Assembly: GCA_032358255.1 (NCBI GenBank)
Contig: JAULBX010008884.1
Span: 1 to 64,000, forward strand
Source: Heterotrichella gracilis
Lineage: Eukaryota > Sar > Xanthophyceae > Tribonematales > Xanthonemataceae
Length of the DNA stretch: 64,000 nt
Direction: 5' to 3'
Part shown: piece by piece, positions 3,613 to 46,521 of the stretch
How the letters are laid out: each line of letters opens with the position of its first letter
How positions within the stretch are numbered: position 1 is the first letter of the stretch
Position numbers and translations under genes: made by a program
The notes under the pieces: model-generated
Database searches by the model: none
Told to the model about the DNA's origin: nothing
The model's input: the letters and a program-made list of their open reading frames with translations, nothing else

Positions 3613-6600
3613 ATGGCTCGGGACAGCAGCACCACGCCAGACCGGGACAAGCGTGACAAAAAGTCCAAGAATCACAAAGAAAAGGACCGTAAGGAGCACA
3701 AAGAGCGGTCTGAGAAGGTGTCGAAGAAGGATTCTGACAGACATCCTGAGAAGCGACACAAGGATAAGGTGAGACCTGTGGCATGAGGCTGAGCTAGTGA
3801 TGGGCATGTGGCACACCCGGCGCATCTGGTATAAACTCCAGCTCCTCAAGTGTTGAGCAAGGCTGCTGCGTGTTTTTTACGCCCACATTACCCACAAGCC
3901 CTTTCTCGGAAAGCGTTGGATCCTCCTGCCAGTTTGCATATCAATGCATGACAGAAGTGACCGTACTGCGGCATGTGCAGGACAAGGATCGGAGTCGAGA
4001 GCTAGAGCGAGAGCGAGACAGGGAGCGGGAGCGGCAGCGTGAGAAGGAGAGAGAAAGGGAGCGTGAGAGGGAACGAGAGCGCGAGAGGGACCGGGAGAAA
4101 GAGCGCGAGAGGGCTCGAGAAAAGGAGCGTGAAAGGGATCGATACAGGTAAAACCCCCTCGTTGCACCTACTGCAACCCTGTTTGCAGAGATACACCGAC
4201 ACCCACTTCTTGTTACTTTATCCACTGTTGTCCACAGAACTGACCTCATATGGGCATATTGGGTTATGCTGCAGGGACAGGGTTAGGGATGGTGACAGGG
4301 ACAGGAGGCCTGACAGGGAGGATGAGCGCCCCAGGGACAAGCGGGACAGGGAGAAGTACGAGGATGAGGAAGCGCAGAAAGCCAAGCGGAGGAAAGATGG
4401 CCCTTCTGTGGATCCTGAGGAGCAGAGGAAGCTGGAGCGGGAGAAGGAGCAGGCGGAGCTGGACTCTGAGATGGAGAAGCGCAGAAAACGCATAGAGGCC
4501 TGGCAGGAGCAGCGCAGGAAATTGGACCAGGGGCAAACAGCAGGGCCAGAACCCAAAATTGAGGAGGAGGCTCCGCAAAAGGTTGGGTGGTCGTTAGAGG
4601 ATGACGATGATTGGGGGGAAGGGGATGATGATGAGGATGGCGATGGCGATGGCATGGCCGCTGACGCTGAACCTGTGGAGGTTGCCCCATCGATGCCCAG
4701 ACCAGCCCCCACTGCAGCAGATGAGGAGGAAGAGGACCCCCTGGATGCATTCATGTCAGCCAACAACACCCACCTGGTCACGGCGTCATCAGCAGCAGCG
4801 GCTGCGCCACAGGAGGACGATGAAATCGACCCCCTGGATGCCTTCATGCAGTCGCAAGTGCTCCCCACAGTGCAGCTGCAGCTGAAGGAAATCAAGCAAG
4901 CTGAGCTTGGCCTCGGGGTACAGTCCAGTGCAGCGCCAGCGGAAGGCACAGCGGAGAATGGCGAGCCAGGGCCCGCCAAGCGGCCGCAGCCCAAGCGCCC
5001 CCAGCGGCGAAGACCAGCCATGTATGACTCAGACTCGGATGAGTCCAGCGAGGAGGAGGAATCAGAGGAGGAGGAGCTGGATGATGAGGTGAGGGGACAA
5101 GTCACAGGCTGGCTGTGCACTCATGCATCCATGGCAAGGCAGCATTGACTCCCTGCCTGGCAGTAATGTGCATTCAATTCTGTGGTGGGTCTGCAACATC
5201 AGCCACCTTTTAAAACCATGCATCATGCCCATGGTACTGCGCACTGTTGCTTGGCATTCTTTTCCTCCACACCAGGATGAGATCCTGCTGCGAGCCAGCA
5301 TGGCCACTTGCTCTTTGCACTTGGTGGCATGTGGGCCAACGACAGGTGTTTGCCCATGCAGGAGTGGGCCAAGAATGTGACCACAGGCCGGCTGAGCAAG
5401 AGTGATCGACTTGGCCTCACCGATCACTCCACGATCGACTACCCGCCCTTCAGGAAGAACTTCTACATTGAGGTGACTGACCTGGCGCGCATGAGCGAGG
5501 CTGAGGTGGCGGAATACCGATCGGAGCTGGATGATGTCAAGGTGAGGGGGCATGATGTCAAGGTGGCGGTGGTGTGAATGTGGATGTGGTTTATGGGGAT
5601 GGGCGCATGGAAGTCTTGGATGTGTGATGCTGGATGGCATGTGAGGCAGATGGTCCCGGCACTTCTTTCCTCCCAAATGTGTGGGCATGGAGGCCTTGAT
5701 GCAAGTCCATGTGTGCACGCCTGTCTATGCATGCACTGGGCCTACCTTTGGCAACAAAAATGCACAACCTAGAACAGCCTGAACTTGTGGCCTTTAAGTG
5801 ACCTGAATGCCCTCGTGGACTAGTCATGCCGAGTCACCTGCCCCTTTACACACCAGGTGCGCGGCAAGGACATCCCCACCCCCGTGCGCAATTGGAACCA
5901 GTGCGGGCTGAGCTCGCGGATCCTTGACCTGCTCAAGCGCAGCGGCTACAGCGCGCCCATGCCCATCCAGGCACAGGCGCTGCCGGTCATCATGTCGGGG
6001 CGGGACTGCCTGGGCATCGCCAAGACAGGCAGCGGGAAGACGCTTGCCTTCCTGCTGCCCATGCTGCGCCATGTGAAGGACCAGCCGGCGTTGATGCAGG
6101 TTTGGTTATTAGTGGTTTAGGGTTCAGAGTTTAGCATTTAGGGTCCTACTGCCCATGCTGCGCCATGTGAAGGACCAGTCGGTGCTGATGCAGGGTGGTT
6201 GGTTAGTGGTTGAGGGTTGAGGGTTTAGGGTCCTACTGCCCATGCTGTGCCATGTGAAGAATCAACCCACGCTGTGCAGGTAGGTTGGGTAGTACCTACA
6301 TGCATTCCAGGAGTACATGCAGATTACCAGTCACCTTTGCACAGCTGGCGCCAACCAGCTCTGTCTTGGCAGGGATTTATACTCCAGTATTTGAACGACT
6401 TCAATGTCCTTTGCTGATGCAGGGCGACGGGCCGATTGCGCTCATCGTTGCGCCCACGCGGGAGCTGGTGCAGCAGATTGGGAAGGAGGTGAAGAAGTTT
6501 GGCAAGTCGCTCAACATCTTCTCGGTCACGGTGTATGGAGGGTCAGGTGGGTGCCCGGTTTGGATTATGCCGCATTGCTGCTGCTGGGTGTTGCACAGTG

Positions 6601-45300: not shown

Positions 45301-46521
45301 ACTAGGGTGTGTGGCTAGGGTTCAGCAGGTGCTCCATGCATGTGCGCCACCTCCTCAGCGCCCTGCGCCAGGAGGGTAGGCAGGTGGTGAGGGTTATAGC
45401 CAGGGTTTGGCAGTGGGAATTCGGTGGACGCCCTGAATGGGTGGCCATGTATACAAGAGTGTATCACTGGCTGGCACACAAGCTACTTGTAAGTGCATAC
45501 TGTTCGATCTGATCACACATGCGCTTACAGTGTACGTGGGTTCAGGAGATCCACATATACCAGGATAAGCAGTGTAAAGAAAGCAGTGTGTGCTATGCGG
45601 ATACAACACATAACAGTATATGTGCCCGATTTAAACTTCAAAAGAGTAACAGCAAGATGGCTGCCTGAAGGCCCCCGCACATGCAACTTGTTTTGGGAGC
45701 GGGCCGGGCAAGCGGTGCAGAGAGGGGTGTGATGCACTCATCAAGCAGTGGGATCACAAGGCTGTTGTGCAGTATGCCGCTAGTGCAGGTGTGCATAGTG
45801 CCCTGGACACAGTGTCAAGTTTTCAACACTGCCATTGCCAATATACAGGCGTGCCATCCTTGTAACTTCAACACTTGGGTAGTATACCAGGGAACAAAAG
45901 ACAGCAGTTGCCGCTTAGCAAGGGCCACCTTTACCAAACAGCCACCCTTTTGCAGTGTCAACAGCTACTATTTGAACCAGGTTGTTGCGGGAGCCAGCGC
46001 AACCCTTCTGGGCGTGTGTACTGCTGGTACCCAGCAGCCACCCGAAACGGCTGATTGCAGCACGCGACATGGTAGCGACAACACCAGCAATCAAAGTGCA
46101 GGCAACGGGCCGTAAAGGGGTGGCATCGGTGGCAGCCCACAATGACTCATATATGCATTGCACACGCACCGACACCCGGGGCTTGACCCTCTTGAGCACG
46201 ACCTTGCGGGTGCCTTGAGCGGTGGTGAGTTTACCCTGCAAGAAAAGGGCAGTTTTAGAAAAGTGGGTATTTTCGGGGCTGCCAAGCGGGTGCGTATTCA
46301 AACTTTTGTCAGTCAGGGTTTACCTCGAAGACTTGGCCAAACGAGCCCTCCCCAATCTGCCTTTCCACGACCAGCTGCTTGGCCTCGTACTTCCTTCCCC
46401 GCGCCCCGTCGCTCCGTACAACCTGCACGGAACCTCTGCCGGGCCTGGCTTTGGCCACAGGCCGCCGCAGCGGGAAAGCATGGCGCCCAGCAGGCGTGGG
46501 TTGCAAGGACCGAGCCCTCAT
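36307..46521 (-). CDS. STN7/STN8-type plastid protein kinase fused to coiled coil and three FF-like domains
   Basis: Ser/Thr kinase related to thylakoid kinases STN7/STN8 (Stt7). Nineteen exons on the minus strand: 46521-46324, 46235-46170, 45262-45119, 44834-44694, 44290-44114, 43769-43652, 43405-43294, 42981-42792, 41848-41687, 41246-41130, 40775-40664, 40307-40081, 39810-39625, 39049-38945, 38616-38401, 38110-37916, 37553-37350, 37057-36855, 36367-36307. Every junction is in phase: 977 aa. Residues 1-45 resemble a transit peptide. Kinase: GEGSFG 57-62, Lys81, HRDVKPSN from 192, DLGAAADL from 213 (DLG instead of DFG, as in STN7). [19 protein letters not shown] and [12 protein letters not shown] match the STN family. 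Then: acidic and coiled-coil region (about 383-512), Pro-rich segment, FF-like domains at about 706-743, 768-804 and 834-868 (for example [18 protein letters not shown]), and a final coiled coil. FF domains are otherwise typical of nuclear splicing/transcription factors. A 9-nt microexon (GGTACTGAG, about 37202-37210) before exon 18 cannot be excluded. Confidence 0.9.
36628..36940. repeat. Duplicated 3' half of kinase exon 18 including its donor
   Basis: The exon 18 end with its GTGAGT donor (real copy about 36849-36940) is repeated at 36628-36721 with over 90 percent identity. A short third remnant lies at about 36778-36815. On the minus strand the copies lie inside intron 18, downstream of the true exon. 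Confidence 0.9.
37730..37948. repeat. Duplicated end of kinase exon 16 with CCCTAAA spacer
   Basis: The exon 16 end and donor (37912-37948) reappear at 37805-37842 with a few substitutions, as part of a unit of about 107 bp. The unit contains CCTAATTACCATGACTC and CCCTAAACCCTAAAC. A second intronic half-unit begins near 37730. Confidence 0.85.
39337..39640. repeat. Four-copy minisatellite seeded by kinase exon 13 end, with TTTAGGG tracts
   Basis: The sequence ACCAGGCCTGTGTAGATGA at the end of exon 13 (minus strand, around 39621-39641) recurs at about 39345, 39420, 39487 and 39560. Units are about 65-75 bp, each followed by one to three TTTAGGG-like motifs and CAGCATCTATCCC. All copies sit in intron 13 beside the real 5' splice site. 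Confidence 0.9.
41025..41150. repeat. Duplicated exon 10 edge with TAGGGT-type spacer
   Basis: The exon 10 end (GCGACAGGTCTGAC at about 41137-41150) has a diverged copy at about 41030-41075 (GCGACAGGTCTCTC...). The copies are joined by GTGCTAGGGTATTG / TATTAGGGTTTTT sequence in intron 10 of the kinase gene. Confidence 0.7.
41262..41280 (-). mobile_element. Poly(A)-ended insertion candidate in kinase intron 9
   Basis: A run of 19 T on the plus strand (poly(A) on the minus strand) ends 16 bases upstream of exon 10. On the minus strand it is preceded within 70 bases by two AATAAA-type signals. The preceding 300 bases differ in composition. This looks like the 3' end of a retroposed transcript or SINE in the same orientation as the gene. 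The 5' boundary and target-site duplication are not clear, so only the tail is given. Confidence 0.45.
43369..43499. repeat. Duplicated start of kinase exon 7 with its acceptor
   Basis: The exon 7 start plus CTGTGCAG acceptor (about 43369-43413) is repeated at 43455-43499 with one or two changes. The copies are separated by AAACCCTAAGCCCCAAACTC. A further CCCTAAGCCCAAACCC tract follows the outer copy. Confidence 0.9.
44254..44373. repeat. Duplicated start of kinase exon 5 with telomere-like spacer
   Basis: The region encoding the HRD-motif start of exon 5 (44254-44293) has a second copy at 44331-44373. Between them is a pure telomere-like spacer (AGGGTTTAGGGCTTAGG and similar). Confidence 0.9.
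45229..45371. repeat. Duplicated start of kinase exon 3 with its acceptor
   Basis: The exon 3 start and GGCGCAG acceptor (45229-45270) are copied at about 45321-45371 with a 4-base insertion. The copies are separated by GGGGGTTAGGGTTGGG and similar TTAGGG-like sequence. Confidence 0.9.

Follow-up and report, generated by a model that had tools for sequence, protein, structure and literature searches.

Why do introns of the xanthophyte Heterotrichella gracilis carry repeated copies of the exon edges that bound them, and why is the DNA between these copies so often telomere-like? The question is raised by a 64-kb stretch of DNA (55% G+C; positions 1 to 64,000 of contig JAULBX010008884.1, here C91), hereafter called the window, from a 68.5-Mb, 903-contig genome (GCA_032358255.1). 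Introns of a PRP5/DDX46 gene and of a gene for an STT7-like kinase in this window contain segments duplicated from an exon edge and joined by TTTAGGG or CCCTAAA repeats. We confirm that this pattern, noticed in a first-pass annotation of the window, is real, genome-wide and tied to introns and exon edges.

Exon-edge copies and telomeric spacers in two genes

Both genes were identified by protein alignment. The closest solved structures to the PRP5/DDX46 product align at E about 1e-93, one of them being named DDX46, and the best solved relative of the kinase is MsStt7d (4ix3) from Micromonas. Reading of the sequence together with self-comparison, for which telomeric motifs were masked beforehand, established exon-edge copies in eight introns of these genes, in agreement with the first-pass annotation, which had counted at least eight. 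TTTAGGG/CCCTAAA-like DNA separates the copies in six of the eight, the other two lacking the motif, so that the spacer is indeed usually telomere-like, as had been claimed; the six places singled out as clearest all hold pairs with telomeric heptamers between them. The individual features are as follows.

6052..6100, plus strand: PRP5/DDX46 exon edge, original (exon 5857-6099), from self-comparison and gene calls, with a protein alignment continuous over 6099/6423
6114..6144, plus strand: PRP5 telomeric spacer 1, TTTAGGG sense (telomeric-motif positions)
6146..6194, plus strand: PRP5 edge, intronic copy 1, 92% identity (self-comparison)
6220..6231, plus strand: PRP5 telomeric spacer 2 (telomeric-motif positions)
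6233..6281, plus strand: PRP5 edge, intronic copy 2, 82% identity (self-comparison)
7053..7083, plus strand: PRP5 exon edge on the 5′ splice side, shorter copies of which lie at 7132-7152 and 7216-7238, without telomeric motif
36597..36718, minus strand: copy of kinase exon edge 36818-36939, 89%, without telomeric motif (self-comparison)
37802..37838, minus strand: intronic copy of kinase exon edge 37909-37945, 86% (self-comparison)
37859..37898, minus strand: telomeric spacer between 37802-37838 and 37909-37945, TTTAGGG in gene sense
39336..39641, minus strand: unit array with telomeric runs at 39379, 39447, 39515 and 39587, the exon edge lying within 39617-39641
43369..43419, minus strand: kinase exon edge, 3′ splice side, original (self-comparison, protein alignment)
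43421..43448, minus strand: telomeric spacer after the 43369-43419 edge, with a further run at 43520-43532 beyond the copy
43455..43505, minus strand: intronic copy of the 43369-43419 edge, 96%
44257..44289, minus strand: kinase exon edge right before the HRD motif, original (self-comparison, protein alignment)
44301..44328, minus strand: telomeric spacer 10 bp off the exon, CCCTAAA in gene sense
44331..44363, minus strand: intronic copy of the 44257-44289 edge, 94% (self-comparison)
45230..45275, minus strand: kinase exon edge, 3′ splice side, original (self-comparison)
45290..45322, minus strand: degenerate telomeric spacer, with exact heptamers at 45290-45297 and 45316-45322 only
45326..45375, minus strand: intronic copy of the 45230-45275 edge, 88% (self-comparison)

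Within the 39336-39641 array, self-comparison pairs 39414-39438 with 39617-39641 at 96% identity. Ungapped protein alignments span the PRP5 junction 6099/6423 and the kinase junctions 43405/43652, 44290/44694 and 44834/45119; because these alignments cross without a gap, the inner copies at these junctions are intronic.

Chance as the source of the copies was ruled out by randomised sequence and by shifting loci. Relative to one randomised version of each sequence (dinucleotide model for the window), the window yielded 35 pairs versus 1 at a score of at least 30 and 25 versus 0 at a score of at least 34, and a second sample independent of the window, positions 1-200000 of contig C2, yielded 108 versus 2 pairs at a score of at least 30. 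The motif lies between the copies at 7 of 12 window loci, with 1.35 expected by shifting, bearing out the earlier statement that the arrangement is too regular for chance.

The window pair 38001/38480 appears to be a repeat in the protein (one FF-domain match), and locus counts that include it are slightly high. The STT7-like kinase itself (36307-46521, minus strand) has a long C-terminal extension in which an FF domain is matched (E=3.5e-15), to our knowledge an unusual combination.

Anatomy, placement and orientation of the units

TTTAGGG is evidently the telomere repeat of this genome. Contigs C70 and C140 open with a (CCCTAAA)n array, the internal runs consist of the identical repeat, and the RNA-binding domain of TERT is encoded on C626 (two matches). 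The two-repeat TTTAGGG pattern occurs 5,629 times genome-wide (2,845 + 2,784), versus 5 (2 + 3) for the reversed pattern; four-repeat runs number 101 + 108. The commonest heptamer rotation is AGGGTTT (57 versus 26 TTTAGGG in the window, 201 versus 87 in C2), and many AGGGTTT words stand alone, which may be decayed runs or seeds.

The repeat unit consists of a segment X followed by a telomeric spacer. At locus L062 a run (735-773) exactly fills the gap between copies 671-734 and 774-837 (64 bp, 95%), and the run at L037 does the same between 19-bp copies of 100% identity. L031 has four copies of an edge comprising about 26 bases of exon and 6 of intron, with three spacers; L073 likewise has four copies and three spacers, at a 112-bp period, and the periods of L072 and of window 39447-39614 are 80 and 74 bp. 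By gene calls, the X-telomere-X structures of L062 and L066 are wholly intronic. We counted copies and runs by eye in 21 arrays, which are those inspected closely and not a random sample, disregarding runs elsewhere in the locus. In 16 of the 21 there is one copy more than there are runs, the excess expected if an insertion duplicates its target, and the equal numbers in the other five fit later whole-unit duplication or copy loss.

One copy more than runs: window PRP5, 39336, 44257 and 45230; C2 181168 and 189610
One copy more than runs: L031, L041, L042, L047, L062, L066, L070, L071, L073 and L075
Copies equal to runs: 43369 (43369-43532), 37802, L037, L069 and L072

At L072 (430-760, contig C195), a 15-nt mini-exon-like unit, GCC ATY RCC AAG CAG, occurs three times with telomeric spacers, preceded by an acceptor and followed by a donor-like GTGGG; these units are possibly decoy or alternative exon starts. 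At the end of contig C46, L036 has a 77-bp exact repeat (14-90 and 565-641) beside a 57-bp telomeric run, which may reflect overlap in the assembly or a recent event.

A good example of what appears to be a new intron built solely of such units in a continuous frame, and the only clean case, is found at L041. Its intron (454-643, 190 bp) is made up of copies of a CAG|GT exon segment and CCCTAAA spacers; the upstream exon ends GCCGCCCGCAG, the downstream exon begins GTTCAACAGG, and all four junction copies read CAG|GT. The joined exons form a 74-residue frame with start and stop, to which no Pfam family was matched, and its coding status therefore rests on frame and codon statistics. Across 443 called introns there was no clear excess of the whole-intron duplication signature: matches of at least 12/20 numbered 2 at the tail and 5 at the head, with 0.69 and 1.35 expected and shuffle maxima of 4 and 5. 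The one strong match at a tail (19/20, L034) was rejected as an intron gain, being an edge copy beside a mis-called intron. Of the suggestion that introns are both created and lengthened in this way, the second part stands, lengthening by telomere-joined edge duplications being well supported; creation is convincing at L041 only.

The association of copies with telomeric DNA extends beyond the window. In the C2 sample, 25 of 63 local duplication loci (score at least 34) have a telomeric heptamer between copies, whereas 1000 shifts averaged 7.22 and peaked at 16, none of them reaching 25; the enrichment elsewhere in the genome that the first-pass annotation had proposed to look for is thus present. 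Visible copies flank clusters of at least 21 telomeric bases in 6 of 15 instances in C2 and 2 of 3 in the window, as compared with 2-3% of random places, and single heptamers in 14 of 107 and 2 of 20.

Placement was assessed on the combined 264 kb of window and C2 with a two-strand gene finder, self-trained on this DNA alone, which called PRP5 exons 5857-6099 and 6423-6546 correctly and started the next at 6768 instead of 6820. Among 71 duplication loci (score at least 36), 58 are at an edge, 7 intron-interior, 5 exon-internal and 1 intergenic; the 19 that are at least 90% identical comprise 13 edge, 4 interior and 2 exon-internal loci. Gaps with a telomeric heptamer are found at 28 of the 58 edge loci. 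Straddling of one edge by a copy is seen at 47 loci, 27 at 5′ and 20 at 3′ splice edges, so that both kinds are affected, as had been reported. These straddling copies have a median length of 53 bp and are 77% exon, versus 47% in a neutral simulation incorporating detection bias, whereby exon copies stay recognisable longer (p=3e-11). The simulation (1,400 of 2,938 events scored) gave an edge:interior ratio of 0.45-0.49 over the full divergence range, versus the observed 58:7 (p=4e-21), and of 0.41-0.43 at 90% identity or more, versus 13:4 (p=1e-4), which contradicts pure detection bias as the cause of the edge excess. A softer null, in which loci are shifted over the same gene calls, gave 1.87 (all) and 1.28 (at least 90% identity). 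Since the event types of the simulation are stricter than the classes applied to real loci, the truth lies between both nulls, and for young copies the edge excess may be as low as about 2.5-fold.

The telomeric runs show a corresponding distribution. Introns contain 72 of those at least 11 bp long (5.45 per 10 kb), exons 4 (0.45) and the DNA outside called genes 5 (1.19). Intronic runs lie a median of 21 bp from the nearest exon edge, versus 71 bp under random placement in the same intron (p=6e-7). Where exons are called on both sides, the 48 runs found no more than 60 bp from an edge amount to 10.1 per 10 kb and the 20 runs deeper in the intron to 2.4, a 4.3-fold difference (p=8e-9); the deeper density does not differ significantly from the 1.2 per 10 kb outside genes (p=0.20). 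The donor motif CAGGTGNG, counted independently of gene calls, is found genome-wide 2-30 bp upstream of a run 222 + 151 = 373 times versus 147 expected (2.5-fold), the expectation being uniform placement in introns and hence using gene calls. Its occurrence downstream of runs (66 + 55 versus 55 expected, 2.2-fold) fits copies that carry a donor. TGCAGG is in 1.5-fold excess on both sides of runs (519 downstream, 464 upstream), counts that are blurred by the palindrome CCTGCAGG and by TGCAG|GT donors. In all these motif counts, overlapping matches in one array are counted repeatedly, which makes p-values optimistic.

Orientation is biased as well. Near the donor motif, 222 runs read TTTAGGG and 151 CCCTAAA genome-wide, and before TGCAGG 347 read CCCTAAA and 172 TTTAGGG. 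In the 264-kb sample the ratio of TTTAGGG to CCCTAAA is 14:12 at donors and 5:18 within 60 bp of acceptors, many of the latter lying 14-23 bp off. The splice-adjacent sequence is itself telomere-like to some degree, GGGT and ACCC being about 2-4 times denser at the matching edge: GGGT reaches 14/kb in the first 10 bp from donors versus 3-8/kb beyond 30 bp, and ACCC 13-16/kb within 40 bp of acceptors versus 4-9/kb beyond.

A proposed repair origin weighed against its rivals

To explain these structures we lean, without strong conviction, toward staggered breaks repaired with telomeric filler, the product being X-telomere-X. A break or two offset nicks would leave complementary overhangs of about 20-100 bases; telomerase would add TTTAGGG to one 3′ end; and filling in of the overhangs followed by joining of the ends would yield X-(TTTAGGG)n-X from a single X. 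What the sequence shows is the X-telomere-X anatomy, its link with introns and exon edges across the genome and the new-intron structure of L041; telomerase, fill-in, end joining and seeding are inferred, with telomerase the likely agent as opposed to capture of ready-made telomeric DNA, and telomeric insertion and overhang fill-in may be combined in one repair event. An insert of this kind in an exon would usually be harmful unless spliced out. If the unit included a splice site, the outer copy would keep the normal exon end, and the inner copy and telomeric DNA would turn intronic; repeated events or unequal exchange would produce arrays, and introns would grow. If X lay inside an exon and contained CAG|GT, the whole insert could turn into a new intron, as at L041. 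The edge preference could have two non-exclusive causes, the survival of units that keep a working splice site and the presence of telomere-like seeds, a role probably served by the GGGT tracts at donors and the ACCC tracts at acceptors. Seeding would place runs in the TTTAGGG sense at donors and in the CCCTAAA sense at acceptors (222:151 and 347:172), and the second of these biases could also be explained by selection against TTTAG or for a CCCTAAA branch site.

Several observations weigh against this reading or narrow it. The seeding idea was framed after the counts were known. The edge excess depends on the null, being strong versus the simulation and modest versus shifting at 90% identity or more (13:4 versus 1.28:1), and the gene finder sometimes labels inner copies as exons, which may inflate the edge class. 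At the junctions of 31 pairs, the run continues in phase into X by at least one base on the left in 6 pairs and on the right in 6, a count in which L047 left and L037 right are extensions into a neighbouring run and a degenerate spacer intervenes in many others. Forty loci were picked solely for at least four exact repeats, of which 27 could be scored and 13 lacked a gene call on both sides. Among the 27, 10 runs lie within 30 bp of an edge versus 21% expected (p=0.045), and their median distance from an edge is no different from that under random placement (91 versus 79 bp, p=0.89). A duplication across the long run is visible in only 14 of the 40 (11 of 20 at a score of at least 32, including the doubtful L036, and 3 of 20 at a score of at least 34). 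Edge preference is thus clear for all runs and weak for the longest; insertion happens away from edges too, and duplication is one outcome of several. The first-pass annotation had proposed a process that duplicates exon borders and adds telomeric repeats. A single recurrent genome-wide process is upheld, but "exon borders" proves too narrow in view of L062, L066 and the longest runs.

A telomeric heptamer is absent from 30 of the 58 edge loci, so that duplication does not depend on the motif. This detracts from repair with telomeric filler and is one of the points in favor of minisatellite growth, in which runs were inserted once and slippage or unequal exchange then duplicated stretches that included exon edges. 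The arrays of three to four units with a regular period (L072, L073 and window 39447-39614) and the five of 21 arrays in which copies equal runs also fit such growth. It accounts poorly, however, for the two-copy cases L062, C2 181168 and C2 189610, which have a run only between the copies, and for the 16 arrays with one copy more than runs, and we consider it rather unlikely. A similarly low probability attaches to the view that selection, and not insertion bias, places the motifs near edges, a view that is compatible with filler repair. On this view CCCTAAA would offer a branch-point-like CTAA some 15-25 bases ahead of the acceptor, GGG runs would aid recognition of the 5′ splice site, and TTTAG near acceptors would be removed as a cryptic acceptor. 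The 18:5 preponderance of CCCTAAA near acceptors, at the distances noted above, and the genome-wide 347 versus 172 are in keeping with selection of this kind, but it leaves the direct duplications around the motif unaccounted for and does not predict the near-equal donor orientations (14:12).

Capture at breaks, whether of pre-existing pieces of telomeric DNA or of a mobile element that carries telomeric sequence (Penelope-like or introner-like), seems to us highly improbable. The duplications here, at about 19-100 bp, are longer than those at introners, which measure a few bp, and by eye no shared non-telomeric sequence was noticed among the spacers inspected, a comparison made without spacer or cross-gene intron alignment. 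In its favor, end joining can insert nucleotides at junctions (PMC3443670). Chance or an assembly artefact is scarcely credible. The data come from one assembly, and the L036 repeat may be an assembly overlap; yet the window copies have diverged by 4-18%, the window and the C2 sample gave 35 and 108 pairs, their randomised versions 1 and 2, and the reversed pattern is found 5 times versus 5,629.

A broader proposal, which we entertain while judging it somewhat less probable than its opposite, is that telomerase is a genome-wide engine of intron growth and birth in this lineage: broken ends close to splice sites would receive telomeric tails and be copied and rejoined, the splice signals in TTTAGGG/CCCTAAA and the copied edge serving to hide the insert. 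If this is so, telomerase would be a mutator of gene structure away from chromosome ends, and the 28 edge loci with heptamers per 264 kb, scaled to 68.5 Mb, would correspond to several thousand such introns. How introns arise and grow has long been asked, and clean molecular fossils of the process are scarce. In this genome the filler marks events recognisably, which makes it possible to count them across the genome, to date them from the divergence of the copies and to test whether they are polymorphic.

Known systems and other features of the window

Within the open-access literature searched, outside of which most subscription papers lie, we found no report of telomeric repeats between exon-edge copies or of telomerase-linked intron gain. 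The pattern is undescribed there, and its ingredients, telomeric insertion and duplication-type intron gain, are known. Interstitial telomeric sequences of rodents and primates are insertions at breaks with in-register bases, and target duplication was recorded at 6 of 130 rodent and 4 of 25 primate loci (PMC2246262); 3 of 66 horse loci had a duplication, with 2 more showing combined changes, and human introns hold 31%, about their random share (PMC7215372). These sequences resemble the present runs in being short internal stretches of the genome's own telomere repeat, read in those reports as telomerase-assisted repair, with target duplication among the recorded, if minor, outcomes. They differ in that the runs described here reach a several-fold higher density in introns close to exon edges, and in that a considerable share of these runs is accompanied by duplications of about 20-100 bp, which are often repeated.

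Among routes of intron gain, AGGT tandem duplication (PMC3443670) is closely similar to L041, where CAG|GT is present in every unit and the intron equals a duplicated exon segment, but here telomeric repeats lie between the units and nearly all other cases extend an existing intron from one edge. Intron gain and growth in Daphnia (PMC4202315) has in common with our reading staggered breaks, direct repeats and passive intron lengthening; its repeats, however, are 4-12 bp and pair the adjacent exon with the opposite intron end, and the stem "telomer" is absent from the text as available. Direct repeats near splice sites (PMC11782384) are also found at intron borders and are ascribed to error-prone repair of insertion; they measure 4-30 bp (mean 11.4) and pair border with border, with no telomeric spacer described in the accessible text. 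Tandem repeats near intron-exon junctions of two green algae (PMC3887541) are likewise enriched toward intron ends, although the abundant intron motif there is GT/AC, and neither "telomer" nor "CCCTAAA" occurs in the text available. Fill-in of 3′ overhangs by Pol alpha under guidance of CST, followed by end joining, generates tandem duplications in mouse cells from 43-bp overhangs (PMC8355091). This arrangement yields X-X through fill-in of both overhangs and joining, and employs telomere fill-in machinery (CST/Pol alpha-primase); the overhang length falls within the range of X seen here. It differs in that the breaks were made by nickase in mouse cells, and the words "telomerase" and "filler" are absent from the accessible text of that report.

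Two further repeats in the window stand apart from these units. A tandem repeat at 34029-34214 has an 81-bp unit in 2.3 copies with 89% matches and no telomeric heptamer between the copies, and the 21/42-bp repeat at 26375-26543, within a called exon, is a coding minisatellite.

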